Assembly: GCA_024278215.1 (NCBI GenBank)
Contig: JAJRTR010000088.1
Coordinates: forward strand, 1-5,175
DNA length: 5,175 bases
Source of the DNA: a bacterium
Lineage (GTDB): Bacteria > UBP15 > UBA6099 > JAJRTR01
Direction: 5' to 3'
The position numbers and the translations under genes were made by a program. Positions 1 through 5,175 of this stretch are shown one piece after another; the stretch's first letter is position 1; each line of letters starts with the position of its first letter. The notes beneath the pieces are model-generated. The model made no database searches, was not told the DNA's origin, and was given only the letters and a program-made list of their open reading frames with translations.

Positions 1-175
1 CAGTTGCAAAATTATGTTCGAAGCGAGGTCGAGCGAAATTGGACTAAAGCAAAGCGGATGTGCAAAATCCCCGCAGGCGTACTTGTAGAGTACGTCGAGG
101 AAGATTTTGTGCCGACAATGCAGCTGTTGACAATTGCAGCCAACCGCAGCCGAATCAGAATTTTGCAATTGGCTC
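1..175. repeat. Palindromic repeat element A, copy 1 (MITE-like)
   Basis: This long imperfect palindrome recurs at the other end of the window. Three pairs of arms share one centre, at base 86. The outer arms are 1-13 and 159-171 (TTGCAAAATT against AATTTTGCAA). The middle arms are CAAAATC 63-69 and GATTTTG 103-109. The central hairpin is CGTACT 78-83 and AGTACG 89-94 with a 5-base loop. The right end, 159-175, is the exact reverse complement of the left end of copy 2 at 5016-5032 (GAGCCAATTGCAAAATT), so the terminal inverted repeat is at least 17 bp. The left end of this copy probably starts a few bases before the window. It aligns with 5020-5175 over 156 bases without gaps and with about 16 mismatches by hand count. 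No ORF inside looks real. It resembles a non-autonomous palindromic mobile element; I do not recognise a named family. Confidence 0.85.
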
Positions 176-271
176 GCCTGTAATACAAGGCGCGGCAAGT
201 GAGTGGTGAGGGAGCATACTGCTGGTATGTGAACGATCCCGAATCGCCGCCGCAACACAGTAGAACAGGCG
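175..271. repeat. Palindromic repeat element B
   Basis: A second imperfect palindrome directly abuts element A. Its terminal arms are 175-186 (CGCCTGTAATAC) and 260-271 (GTAGAACAGGCG), which match at 10 of 12 positions when one is reverse-complemented. A central hairpin CATAC 215-219 / GTATG 225-229 has a 5-base loop and sits within one base of the centre of the outer arms. GC-rich stretches near 188-196 and 244-253 can pair as intermediate arms. The design (outer arms, GC-rich flanks, short central stem with a 5-base loop) matches element A, but the sequence differs. Only one copy is present here, so mobility is inferred from architecture. Confidence 0.6.
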
Positions 272-409
272 TTATCCCGATTTTCCGGCGGAAAGAAAAC
301 ACCTCACCGCTTTGCAGCCTCCAGCCGGGCGATCCACATTGTAACAATAATGATCACGCAATGAAATGTTTCCTGTGAACTTTCGGGGGATTTTATTTTA
401 CAACAGAAA
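272..409. other. Non-coding spacer, no recognisable content
   Basis: No convincing gene, RNA or strong hairpin is visible between elements B and C. Open frames crossing it are short and resemble no protein family I know. It may be decayed flanking DNA left by successive insertions, since repeat elements lie on both sides. Confidence 0.4.
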
Positions 410-554
410 TTGATTCGTGTGTAATAAGTCGAAGATGACAATTGTCAACCAACAATGATCGACTATAACGAACGTGCGTTCAGCATTTCAAAGCATCTTG
501 ACCGACTTTGACAAAAACATTGTTTTTGAAAATGACTTATTACGCACGAATCAA
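410..554. repeat. Inverted-repeat element C, inserted in receiver gene remnant
   Basis: Terminal inverted repeats of 21 bp lie at 410-430 and 534-554 and match at 20 of 21 positions. The left arm begins TTGATTCGTG and ends AATAAGTC. The interior holds three smaller palindromes: TGACAATTGTCA (436-447), GAACG/CGTTC (470-481) and CAAAAACATTGTTTTTG (512-528). No coding capacity is seen. The right arm enters the minus-strand receiver-domain frame and provides its TGA stop (551-553), so the element either inserted into that gene or marks a deletion end. No clear target-site duplication was found. The 145-bp size with near-perfect terminal repeats fits a MITE-type element. Confidence 0.75.
512..528. 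promoter_or_regulatory. Perfect 17-bp palindrome, operator-like
   Basis: CAAAAACATTGTTTTTG is symmetric around base 520 with eight paired positions on each side. The spacing is too tight for an RNA hairpin loop, so it resembles a dimeric repressor site more than a terminator. It lies inside element C and has no intact gene near it, so it may simply be part of that element's structure. Confidence 0.35.
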
Positions 555-886
555 GATTCCGTTTGCGCATCAAGCAAATCGCCGTCTGTCACCCCTCCTC
601 CACTCATCAGCACCACGGGTATGCGGCCACCCCCGGTATGCGTGCGTCGAATGACCCTCGAGGTCTCGACACCCGACATGCCCGGGAGCGCCACATCCGT
701 TAGTACTATGTCCGGCCCTTCTTCTTTCACACGCCTGAGCGCCTTCTTCACATCACCCTCTTTGATAATTATGAAATGTTCGGCCAGTACGCGTGCCAGT
801 ACTCCAAGCAGCTTTTCATCGTCTTCTATTTCATTTTTCCCTGTTTGCTTTACAGCTACTTTATCCCCTCTGTTCCATCGTTCATT
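551..886 (-). pseudogene. Truncated response-regulator receiver domain
   Basis: The minus-strand frame between stops at 887-889 and 551-553 encodes most of a CheY-like receiver domain. Visible landmarks are the acidic pair in EIEDDEKLLGVL, the phospho-acceptor Asp in DIVLTDVALPGMSG, and the beta-4 Ser in IPVVLMSGG. The domain stops after DAQTES, before the conserved beta-5 Lys, exactly where element C begins. The N-terminal beta-1 strand is also abnormal: where a hydrophobic run such as ILIVDDE is expected, the sequence reads KNEIEDDE. No ATG lies in frame before the domain; the only usual start is GTG at 749-751, which would remove the first third. The linker-like lead (RGDKVAVKQTGK) could come from the C-terminal receiver of a hybrid histidine kinase or from a free response regulator. 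I read it as a non-functional remnant broken at both ends. Confidence 0.75.
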
Positions 887-1695: not shown

Positions 1696-1803
1696 CAAGT
1701 AGTGGTTGAAGAAAACCAGCTCCTACCGGAATGCGCGCAAATCGCCGCTATCCCGGGAGAAGGAAACAGGGAGTCCGGAGGTTTCCGCCCAACCACTACC
1801 TTG
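1696..1803. repeat. Palindromic element D between convergent genes (possible bidirectional terminator)
   Basis: Arms GTAGTGGTTG (1699-1708) and CAACCACTAC (1790-1799) are perfectly complementary and extend, with one extra base, to CAAG at 1696 and CTTG at 1803. Further inside, AAACC 1713-1717 pairs with GGTTT 1780-1784, and CCGGA 1726-1730 with TCCGG 1774-1778; TCCCGGGA (1751-1758) lies near the centre. The hairpin fills the whole gap between the phosphatase stop (1691-1693) and the RAYT-like stop (1796-1798), and the latter stop codon lies inside the right arm. It could end transcription from both sides, although there is no strong T tract. It could instead be a REP/BIME-like element, since the left arm starts with GTAG, the tetranucleotide found beside known REP hairpins. 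Confidence 0.65.
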
Positions 1804-2749
1804 CAACCGCTCCGTTGCTGTTGCGGATTTTGCGTTCGATTTCCAGCATAGTCCTGTCCAGTTGCTTATCGGATTTTCTATTTGCTTCGACCCGTTTGGC
1901 GGTGTTGCATATAGAAGACGGGCCGACGGCGAACAGGTCGCCGAGTTCCTCGAGCGGTATCGTGGTGACATTCCTGCAAAGATAAATAGCGATATTGCGC
2001 GGAATATTCGGTTTTTTTCTGTTATTTGTAATCGATTCCACAGAAACGCTGTAGTAGGCGGCGATGGCGTCGATAACTTTTGTCGGGCTTATAGTTGCAA
2101 GCGGAGGGCGTTCCGATTCCTTTTTCACAAACTCGATAAAATCCGGTCCGCCTATGATCCGCTGTTTCAGAAGCATTTTCTCCATGGCGGTATAATCCAG
2201 ATTGATGCCCGATTCGACATAGTCCTTATATTTTCGTTTGCACCTGTTAGGCGACCCGCTGAACTTGCCGAGTACATCTCTTGTAAAAACCGCCGGTATC
2301 TGGTCGCCGGGCAGGGCATATTTGTAGTGGCTGGTCCAGCGGTAGCGGTCGGGGTGGTGCGCCAGGCCCGCATAAACAGGAATCAGGTGAATATGGCGGG
2401 TGATCTTCAACAGGTATCGCGATTTGTCCACCACGGGACTCTTATACCTGCCCTTGAAAAGGCGGCCCGAAATCCTGTGGCGCGTATTGATATAAGCCAT
2501 ATAATGACTGTTTATATACTGTAAAGCTTTTGTCAGGTTGCCCATCGGCGTTTCGAGTAACAGCCTGTAGCTGTCGTTCATCAGGCAGAATGCGTGCAGT
2601 TTCAGCGAATATCTTTTAATACCGTAATCCAGTATCTGGAGAAATCTGTTTCTGTCTATGTCATCCTGAAAAATCCTTACGTCCGGCATTGCCTCAACAT
2701 ATATATGATAAAGAGCGCCCGGGTATTCAATTCTTGTGGGTCTCGGCAC
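1796..2749 (-). CDS. REP-associated tyrosine transposase (RAYT/Y1_Tnp) relative with DnaA-like C-terminus, catalytic residues lost
   Basis: The 317-residue protein has the RAYT order. It starts PRPTRIEYPGALYHI, followed by the IFQDDIDRNRFLQIL helix, LHAFCLMNDSYRLLLETP, SGRLFKGRYKSPVVDKSRYLL and IHLIPVYAGL. From about residue 215 a tail (KVIDAIAAYYSVSVESI, IPRNIAIYLCR, IPLEELGDLFAVG) resembles DnaA domain IV, a helix-turn-helix that binds double-stranded DNA; this fusion is known in larger RAYT-like proteins. Active members cut single-stranded DNA next to REP hairpins using an HUH motif and a tyrosine. Here the expected NHYH reads DSYR (residues 59-62), losing both histidines, and the expected RYIHLNP reads RHIHLIP (118-124), replacing the tyrosine with His119. 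The SRGN segment is also altered (VEAM). The frame is otherwise intact, so it may be a retained DNA-binding protein or an early pseudogene. The GTG at 2747-2749 is chosen as start because GGAGGT lies nine bases upstream and the family begins at this point. The stop codon lies in palindrome D. Confidence 0.85.
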   Translation of the reverse strand: MPRPTRIEYPGALYHIYVEAMPDVRIFQDDIDRNRFLQILDYGIKRYSLKLHAFCLMNDSYRLLLETPMGNLTKALQYINSHYMAYINTRHRISGRLFKGRYKSPVVDKSRYLLKITRHIHLIPVYAGLAHHPDRYRWTSHYKYALPGDQIPAVFTRDVLGKFSGSPNRCKRKYKDYVESGINLDYTAMEKMLLKQRIIGGPDFIEFVKKESERPPLATISPTKVIDAIAAYYSVSVESITNNRKKPNIPRNIAIYLCRNVTTIPLEELGDLFAVGPSSICNTAKRVEANRKSDKQLDRTMLEIERKIRNSNGAVAR

Positions 2750-2758
2750 CTCTGTGTA

Positions 2759-2764
2759 ACCTCC
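2759..2764 (-). promoter_or_regulatory. Ribosome binding site fixing the RAYT-like start
   Basis: On the minus strand GGAGGT lies nine bases before the GTG at 2747-2749. It overlaps the alternative TTG-initiated frame (start at 2768-2770), which makes that longer reading unlikely. Confidence 0.7.
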
Positions 2765-2771
2765 CTGCAAA

Positions 2772-3090: not shown

Positions 3091-3118
3091 ATTATAGTGT
3101 CTGAAAACGGCATGTCAA
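3091..3118 (-). promoter_or_regulatory. Consensus sigma-70 promoter towards the RAYT-like gene
   Basis: On the minus strand TTGACA (3113-3118) and TATAAT (3091-3096) both match the consensus at all six positions, with a 16-base spacer. Transcription would begin near 3084 and read into the 74-codon ORF and the RAYT-like gene. The promoter begins only five bases past the tlyA stop codon, so the downstream genes need not depend on tlyA read-through. An inverted repeat ACAAAACC 3081-3088 / GGTTTTGT 3017-3024 lies at the start of the transcript. Confidence 0.75.
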
Positions 3119-3123
3119 TGCTT

Positions 3124-3936
3124 TCACAGGTTTTGAAAAAATGAGTGAGCTGCATCAACAACAGCATCATGATCTACCTTTGCCGAGCGACCGGAATTAT
3201 TAAAAAACACAGCAAAGAACTCGATATTTCCTTTCGGACCCCTCAGGCGCGAGAATGTCAGGCCGCCTGTGTACAGTCCGAATTCCACGGCAACGTCGGT
3301 GATGTTTTTCAGCACCTTGGTGTGGACTTCGGCGTCTTTGACAACTCCGCCTTTGCCAACTTTCCCGCGCCCGGCCTCGAACTGCGGTTTCACAAGCGAC
3401 ACTATAAGACCGTCGTCTTTCAACAATTTGGAAACAGCCGGAAAAACCTTCAACAATGAAATGAAAGAAACGTCCATTGTCGCCATGTCGAATGATTTGT
3501 CGAAATCGCCCGGATCGAGGTACCGTGCATTTGTTTTTTCAAACACCGAGACACGTTTGTCGTTGCGGAGTTTCATAGCGAGTTGGCCGTATCCGACATC
3601 AACAGCAGCAACAGTTTTCGCGCCGCGCCGGAGCAGACAGTCGGTAAAACCGCCTGTCGATGCGCCGATGTCCAGCACGTCGAGGCCTTTCGGGTCGATG
3701 TTGAAGTCGTCCAGAGCGCCTTCGAGCTTCTCGCCGCCCCGGCTCACATATTTCGAGCCGCCGCCCCTGACTCGGACCCGCGCATGTACTGAAACGCTCA
3801 CGCCGGCCTTCGTTACAGGTGTGTCGTCCACCAGCACACGGCCTGCCATTATCAACGCTTTTGCCTTTTCCCGCGATTCGGCAAGTCCTTTTTCGGCAAC
3901 TATGCGGTCCAGTCTTCTCCTGTCTTTTCCCGGCAT
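3124..3936 (-). CDS. tlyA: TlyA family RNA methyltransferase (S4 + FtsJ-like domains)
   Basis: The 270-residue protein is the usual length for TlyA, which methylates ribose 2'-OH groups of cytidines in ribosomal RNA using S-adenosylmethionine. An S4 RNA-binding domain covers about residues 6-65 (RRLDRIVAEKGLAESREKAK, then AGRVLVDD). A Rossmann methyltransferase domain follows from KYVSRGGEKLEGAL. The SAM motif is VLDIGASTGGFTDCLL (87-102), with the ribose-binding acid in VAAVDVGYGQL. The K-D-K-E tetrad of FtsJ-type 2'-O-methyltransferases is present as Lys70, Asp155 (MDVSFIS), Lys183 (LVKPQFEAGRGKVGKGG) and Glu239 (GNIEFF). The ATG is preceded by AAAGGGGGGATT, a strong but unusually close binding site. 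It is annotated as haemolysin in older databases, but the residues support the enzyme. It is transcribed divergently from the LOG-like gene, and I see no strong terminator after it. 16S or 23S specificity cannot be told from the sequence alone. Confidence 0.95.
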   Translation of the reverse strand: MPGKDRRRLDRIVAEKGLAESREKAKALIMAGRVLVDDTPVTKAGVSVSVHARVRVRGGGSKYVSRGGEKLEGALDDFNIDPKGLDVLDIGASTGGFTDCLLRRGAKTVAAVDVGYGQLAMKLRNDKRVSVFEKTNARYLDPGDFDKSFDMATMDVSFISLLKVFPAVSKLLKDDGLIVSLVKPQFEAGRGKVGKGGVVKDAEVHTKVLKNITDVAVEFGLYTGGLTFSRLRGPKGNIEFFAVFFNNSGRSAKVDHDAVVDAAHSFFQNL

Positions 3937-4750: not shown

Positions 4751-5017
4751 ATGAACGAAGAATACTACCAGAGCGATGAGATAATCGCACTGTCACCCAG
4801 GGGTTTCGATGAGGTGACACTCGCAGCCGATGAGCTTAAAGCCGGCAAGCCGATAATTATAAACTTCTCCGATTTCCAGTCGGAAGAGCGTATATGGGCC
4901 ATCCAGTTTCTCAACGGTGTCGTATATGCGATGGGCGGCAAGTCTAAAGATATCGGCAACATGGTTTTTCTTTTCGCACCTCCGAATGTCGATATCAATC
5001 TTGATTCATTGAACTGA
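4751..5017 (+). CDS. sepF: SepF-like cell division protein, minimal core only
   Basis: The 88-residue protein matches the SepF (DUF552/YlmF) core throughout. IIALSPRGFDEVTLAADELKAGKPIIINFSDF is the beta-alpha-beta start, RIWAIQFLNGVVYAMGG the helix and turn, and DIGNMVFLFAPPNVDI the final strands. In Gram-positive bacteria and many archaea SepF tethers FtsZ filaments to the membrane. Those proteins are usually about 150 residues, with an amphipathic membrane-binding helix and a linker before this core. Here both are absent: only about ten residues precede the core, and an in-frame TGA at 4736-4738 blocks any longer start. There is no clear ribosome binding site before the ATG. It may act through another membrane partner or as a soluble core protein. 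The stop codon overlaps the end of element A copy 2, which supplies its last two bases. Confidence 0.85.
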   Translation: MNEEYYQSDEIIALSPRGFDEVTLAADELKAGKPIIINFSDFQSEERIWAIQFLNGVVYAMGGKSKDIGNMVFLFAPPNVDINLDSLN

Positions 5018-5175
5018 GCCAATTGCAAAATTATGTTCGAAGCGAGGTCGAACGAAATTATTCAGAAGCAAGGCGGAGGTGCAAAATCACCGCAGGCGTA
5101 CTTGCAGAGTACGTTGAGGAAGATTTTGTGCCGACAACGCAGCTGTTGACAATTGCAGCCGACTGTAGCCGAATC
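5016..5175. repeat. Palindromic repeat element A, copy 2 (runs off the window)
   Basis: This is the same element and orientation as copy 1: 5020-5175 aligns with 1-156 without gaps. The left end GAGCCAATTGCAAAATT (5016-5032) is the terminal inverted repeat defined by the right end of copy 1. The middle arms are at 5082-5088 and 5122-5128, and the central hairpin CGTACT/AGTACG at 5097-5113. The matching right end should follow within about 20 bases after the window. Differences between copies cluster in the left interior (5041-5060), while the paired arms are nearly unchanged. Confidence 0.85.

Follow-up and report, generated by a model that had tools for sequence, protein, structure and literature searches.

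A conserved RAYT-type protein that seems to have given up DNA cleavage and probably serves its host as a DNA-binding regulator

The window, a 5,175-nt contig (JAJRTR010000088.1, assembly GCA_024278215.1) from a bacterium of the uncultured UBP15 lineage, carries a gene for a protein of the RAYT type in which a Y1 (HUH-type) domain is followed by a DnaA-like DNA-binding tail (Table 1). The original prediction had read the family, the tail and the length of 317 residues from the letters, and Pfam and fold matches agree: the first domain scores 24.1 bits against PF01797 (Y1_Tnp; cut-off 23), the tail is recognised as Bac_DnaA_C, and the NCBIfam model for REP tyrosine transposases (NF047646) gives 40.7 bits, half of its 80-bit cut-off. 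DnaA profiles match the tail only (50 bits vs a cut-off of 344), and the AAA+ ATPase domain is absent. The reading frame runs without stops or frameshifts, as had been claimed; its GTG start at 2749 is favoured over an upstream TTG at 2770 because the orthologues begin at the same residue, and the gene is the sole full-length copy of its kind in the 4.55-Mb genome. Elsewhere in the window, a 66-aa open reading frame (551-751, minus strand) that holds part of a response-regulator receiver domain (positions 32-78 of the 111 in the profile) is probably a gene remnant; a comparison of the window with Rfam found no structured RNA.

Table 1. Features of the gene and its surroundings, in window coordinates
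Feature	Position	Strand	Details and basis
Catalytically dead RAYT-type gene (Y1_Tnp + Bac_DnaA_C), judged by sequence	1796..2749	-	GTG start, 317 aa, TAG stop
Y1 (HUH-type) domain, residues 1-145	2315..2749	-	Pfam PF01797; 4er8 match of model residues 1-194
Former HUH site NDSYR, residues 58-62	2564..2578	-	Alignment: N-H-x-H in active relatives
Former Tyr/metal-ligand motif RHIHLIP, residues 118-124	2378..2398	-	Tyr119 to His, Asn123 to Ile
Less conserved linker, residues 146-219	2093..2314	-	Low orthologue identity, relaxed dN/dS
DnaA-domain-IV-like DNA-binding tail, residues 220-313	1811..2092	-	Pfam PF08299, E 1.6e-10; 3pvp/1j1v structure matches
Ribosome-binding site AGGGAGG upstream of GTG	2760..2766	-	Sequence; GGAGG upstream of all orthologues too
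Exact sigma-70-type promoter TTGACA-N16-TATAAT directly after tlyA	3091..3118	-	Present in 6/6 genomes
tlyA (rRNA 2'-O-methyltransferase), conserved upstream neighbour	3124..3936	-	TIGR00478, 242 bits; synteny

One full-length orthologue, 50-53% identical, is present in each of five genomes from another family (f2) of the same order, all filed in GenBank as UBP15/ADurb.Bin236 relatives (RA.bin91, ADurb.Bin236, USMO_maxbin.112, USCA_metabat.19 and UBP15_UBA6099); family f1 is represented by the window genome only. In each of these six genomes, tlyA lies directly upstream on the same strand and the exact promoter stands between the two genes, with the spacer and a leader of 230-500 bases diverged; in dinucleotide shuffles, a promoter match with at most one mismatch arose anywhere in the window in 5 of 200. 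The good ribosome-binding site and perfect promoter of the original prediction are both borne out. Downstream of the gene, the f2 genomes have rpmH, rnpA, yidD, yidC and jag (in genus g2, yidD was identified from the sequence itself) and the window has a convergent histidine-phosphatase gene; because the window genome keeps its rpmH-rnpA-yidC-jag cluster elsewhere, apart from the gene, the association with rpmH is dispensable; the constant companions of the gene are tlyA and the promoter. Such company might point to an RNA-binding accessory of the ribosome or of RNA metabolism, since the gene of an rRNA methyltransferase adjoins it in each of the six genomes, and rpmH, rnpA and jag (khpB/jag) in five; however, a gene with its own promoter need not share a function with its neighbours, and the strongly constrained DnaA-like helix-turn-helix points to double-stranded DNA, which makes this role very unlikely.

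What has become of the active site? All 11 active relatives in the alignment read N-H-x-H at the HUH position, where the window reads N58-D-S-Y-R62, and the RY...NP of their tyrosine motif is R118-H-I-H-L-I-P124 in the window; the alignment thus confirms the two replacements first proposed from a remembered consensus (NHYH to DSYR, RYIHLNP to RHIHLIP). The five orthologues read DGYR or DGYK (DDGY[RK] with the preceding D), then LP for NP. Six positions are changed in all six proteins (G20 to A/S, N21 to M, N59 to D, H60 to S/G, H62 to R/K and N123 to I/L), with the active residue found in 9-11 of the 11 active relatives at N59, H60, H62, N21 and N123; two of the six, G20 and N21, belong to the RGN motif. 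The metal ligands of these enzymes are two histidines and the asparagine four residues after the tyrosine, Y---NP (Quentin et al., 2018, PMC6006769); since all three are changed, the entire metal site is gone. Tyr119, by contrast, is lost in the window genome alone and kept in 5/5 f2 orthologues, and Tyr119His is a one-base difference in MAG data, with a sequencing error at that base possible. The original claim that all catalytic groups were lost thus holds for the window genome and fails for the five orthologues, which keep the tyrosine; of the changes that were to be looked for in orthologues, they have the metal-site loss (5/5), and Tyr to His is confined to the window.

HUH enzymes need both the metal and the tyrosine, by established chemistry, so the protein has presumably lost the ability to nick or rejoin single DNA strands. 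Judged by its sequence, it falls outside the ordinary RAYTs, three of whose defining catalytic features were looked for and are absent: the HUH histidines, the catalytic tyrosine (in the window) and the Y---NP asparagine. Could cleavage persist through a rebuilt site, built from clade-specific residues such as D59, H82 or the basic one now in place of the second histidine? Several charged residues (D59, H82, K99, R111 and K115) are newly fixed in the clade, and Tyr119 is kept in 5/6 members; but the three known metal ligands are gone, the missing tyrosine of the window protein makes a shared tyrosine mechanism impossible, and neither alignment nor fold comparison, a check suggested at the outset, places an alternative His-U-His in the site. 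Persistent cleavage of this kind is highly unlikely.

Other RAYT-like sequences show a range of states. Both histidines are kept in 42 RAYT-like loci of the other genomes examined, and the exceptions there are two, both of one unrelated genome (G036, loci L021 and L096): HUH-less proteins that read DESFQ and DNSFH and sit on long tree branches, so HUH losses of this sort may recur. The window genome itself has a second RAYT-like gene on contig 6 (L004, 1441-1977, minus strand), tail-less, with PDSLH and RYVETLP; its first histidine and NP asparagine are replaced and its tyrosine is kept, a pattern that resembles the f2 orthologues, and no orthologue of it was seen in f2. An 86-aa RAYT fragment on contig 115 (L002, 1492-1752), with RGN intact and NHYQ, is 37-46% identical to the dead clade, closest to its g2 members, and is possibly the remnant of a relative.

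The six orthologues group as a single clade (support 100/100) in a tree built from 40 RAYT-like proteins; the clade has a long stem (1.03) and is nested inside DnaA-tailed, HUH-intact RAYTs; by descent, as far as the sequences tell, the protein belongs to the DnaA-tailed RAYT lineage. The end branch of the window protein (0.34) shows no acceleration vs its sister branches. Since the five f2 orthologues still keep Tyr119, the metal site would have gone first; we infer, as the simplest order, that it was lost in the common ancestor and the tyrosine later, in the window lineage. Within the order, the sixth genome (G002, 78% complete) has tlyA and lacks the RAYT-type gene behind it. A scan of genome contigs gave nothing with a single-protein query; with patterns derived from the alignment, a scan of ~85,000 species genomes recovered the five orthologues already known but no other close relative, at the limited sensitivity of a pattern search.

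Is the cleavage-dead form decaying or being kept? Among four genomes of genus g2, dN/dS is 0.06-0.10, which is not neutral and compares with higher values for tlyA (0.12-0.18) and near ones for yidC and jag (0.02-0.08). In the widest g2 pair, the deficit of amino-acid changes gives a binomial P of 1.7e-20 against neutrality for the whole protein. When the parts are taken separately, the Y1 domain (P 2e-14) and the tail (P 4e-8) each show a significant deficit, and that of the linker is weak (P 0.01). Identity to the orthologues follows the same partition, with 32-34% in the linker vs 53-60% in the two domains, and reaches 81-88% in the recognition helix of the tail vs 50-53% overall. The Y1 domain and the tail are equally constrained, and both domains are being kept. 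Synonymous sites have reached saturation in comparisons of f1 with f2; the within-genus dN/dS is that of g2 only, and selection on the Tyr-less form is judged by its intact frame, branch length and divergence pattern. These figures bear on the possibility that a mobile RAYT was inactivated recently and left a pseudogene, a thought encouraged by the degenerate or truncated state of the two other RAYT-like sequences of the window genome (contig 6, PDSLH...RYVETLP; contig 115, 86 aa, NHYQ). Against it stand the metal-site loss common to five other genomes, the intact frame, the low dN/dS and the conserved promoter and synteny; such an origin is extremely improbable, a fresh pseudogene being ruled out by the shared losses and dN/dS. 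The domestication put forward in the original prediction fares well, with the inactive form conserved across two families and under purifying selection in g2.

The predicted fold is intact. In an AlphaFold2 model (mean pLDDT 85, pTM 0.68), the Y1 domain superposes on the E. coli RAYT-REP complex 4er8 (Z 17.5, rmsd 2.2 Å, 156 residues) and the tail on the DNA-binding domains of DnaA, 3pvp and 1j1v (Z 16-17, among them 16.9; rmsd 1.2-1.3 Å). Binding of DNA without catalysis is feasible, because catalytic-tyrosine mutants of Y1 transposases have been crystallised on DNA (2xo6). But does the likeness of the tail extend to what it reads? The DHTT motif of DnaA reads the DnaA box; the DH[TS]T of E. 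coli DnaA and of these genomes' own DnaA proteins is replaced by GPSS in the tail, as a result of which DnaA-box recognition is unlikely, and other RAYT tails are without DH[TS]T too. A role in replication, with the tail competing with DnaA or recruiting it at DnaA boxes near the origin, would suit a tail modelled as DnaA domain IV and the position of the f2 gene immediately before rpmH-rnpA-yidD-yidC-jag, a cluster often beside dnaA/oriC in other bacteria. It is made very doubtful by the GPSS replacement, by dnaA-dnaN lying on other contigs, by the rpmH-rnpA of the window genome lying on another contig without the RAYT-type gene, and by a search near the gene that found no DnaA-box cluster.

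If not DnaA boxes, could the target be a repeat? A repeat-binding role had been suggested and is not upheld, for the abundant repeats of the genome are MITE-like and not REP-type. The main dispersed repeat (family 1, ~190 bp; 40 scored matches, 391 candidates) has 17-bp terminal inverted repeats, GAGCCAATTGCAAAATT, and mostly 4-bp target duplications, like the MITEs of DDE transposases, and was rejected as a RAYT substrate. Both contig ends (window 1-175 and 5016-5175) fall in copies of this family, the right-hand one contributing the GA of the TGA stop (5015-5017) of a SepF-like open reading frame. A second dispersed family (~176 bp) has a copy in the leader of one f2 orthologue (genome G005, L034) and, by eye, another at window 176-300; it is abundant in all genomes with the RAYT-type gene (157 candidates in G005, 109 in the window genome; other counts 29-48), and G002, the genome without that gene, has few copies (11 candidates). 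An inverted repeat with GTAG ends, GTAGTGGTTG...CAACCACTAC (1699-1799; RNA fold z -3.0), spans the stop codon of the gene and the gap to the convergent gene; a REPIN is unsupported here, with few partial copies elsewhere in the genome and one of them with GTAG. In the literature on TnpA-Y1 classes, subclass 2.1 RAYTs have no flanking REPs.

Two nucleic-acid-binding folds under selection, no metal site and a conserved promoter of its own argue for a domesticated, non-cleaving DNA-binding protein, which we regard as the best explanation, with a probability of about 0.72. A DnaA-tailed TnpA-REP/RAYT would have been captured by an ancestor of the UBP15 order and domesticated; the two HUH histidines, the Y---NP asparagine and the RGN turn would have been removed before f1 and f2 split, and the window lineage would later have lost a nucleophile tyrosine that was by then unnecessary. 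Presumably expressed from its own strong predicted promoter downstream of tlyA, the protein probably binds double-stranded DNA through its helix-turn-helix tail, in which the recognition helix has hardly changed within the clade. The retained Y1 fold probably binds a hairpin or single-stranded nucleic acid, and may alternatively be a dimerising platform. Nucleic-acid binding and dimerisation are read from the modelled folds and a regulatory role from analogy; the likeliest use would be to regulate transcription or the nucleoid at a small number of sites, although the function could instead be RNA- or protein-directed.

Why bacteria keep RAYTs is an open question: they look vertically inherited and housekeeping-like, yet without a proven host function. 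A dead RAYT under strong selection uncouples binding from cleavage and opens the question of host benefit to testing, its binding target being a candidate for the service that made a RAYT worth keeping. That a vertically inherited RAYT family gave up DNA cleavage and became fixed as a host DNA-binding regulator is somewhat likely; if true, the benefit that a host draws from RAYT-type proteins can be wholly non-catalytic. The case also argues against the practice, in family surveys, of discarding HUH-less Y1 sequences as non-functional.

No description of a conserved catalytically dead RAYT family was found in open-licence PMC papers, and the protein is best placed by comparison. With TnpA-Y1 class 2 subclass 2.1.2 (PMC6006769) it has in common a Y1 fold followed by a DnaA-like helix-turn-helix, a length of ~320 aa, low copy number and perhaps the lack of recognised flanking REP hairpins, and the C-terminal Bac_DnaA_C-like domain of that subclass is present behind the Y1 core. 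The members kept in that survey have HuH and Y---NP, sequences without them having been set aside as non-functional (Quentin et al., 2018, PMC6006769), whereas the window protein has lost its metal site and yet belongs to a clade under strong purifying selection. E. coli TnpA-REP (4er8), described as a domesticated transposase (PMC8266576), has the same fold but keeps HUH, Tyr115 and Asn119, cleaves REP hairpins and is without a DnaA-like tail. The tail shares its fold with DnaA domain IV (1j1v, 3pvp), but the window protein has no AAA+ domain and has GPSS for DHTT. The TldR proteins (PMC13418256), nuclease-dead transcription factors derived from TnpB, offer an analogy, in that a transposon protein lost catalysis and became a regulator; they are unrelated proteins and RNA-guided, and no membership is claimed.
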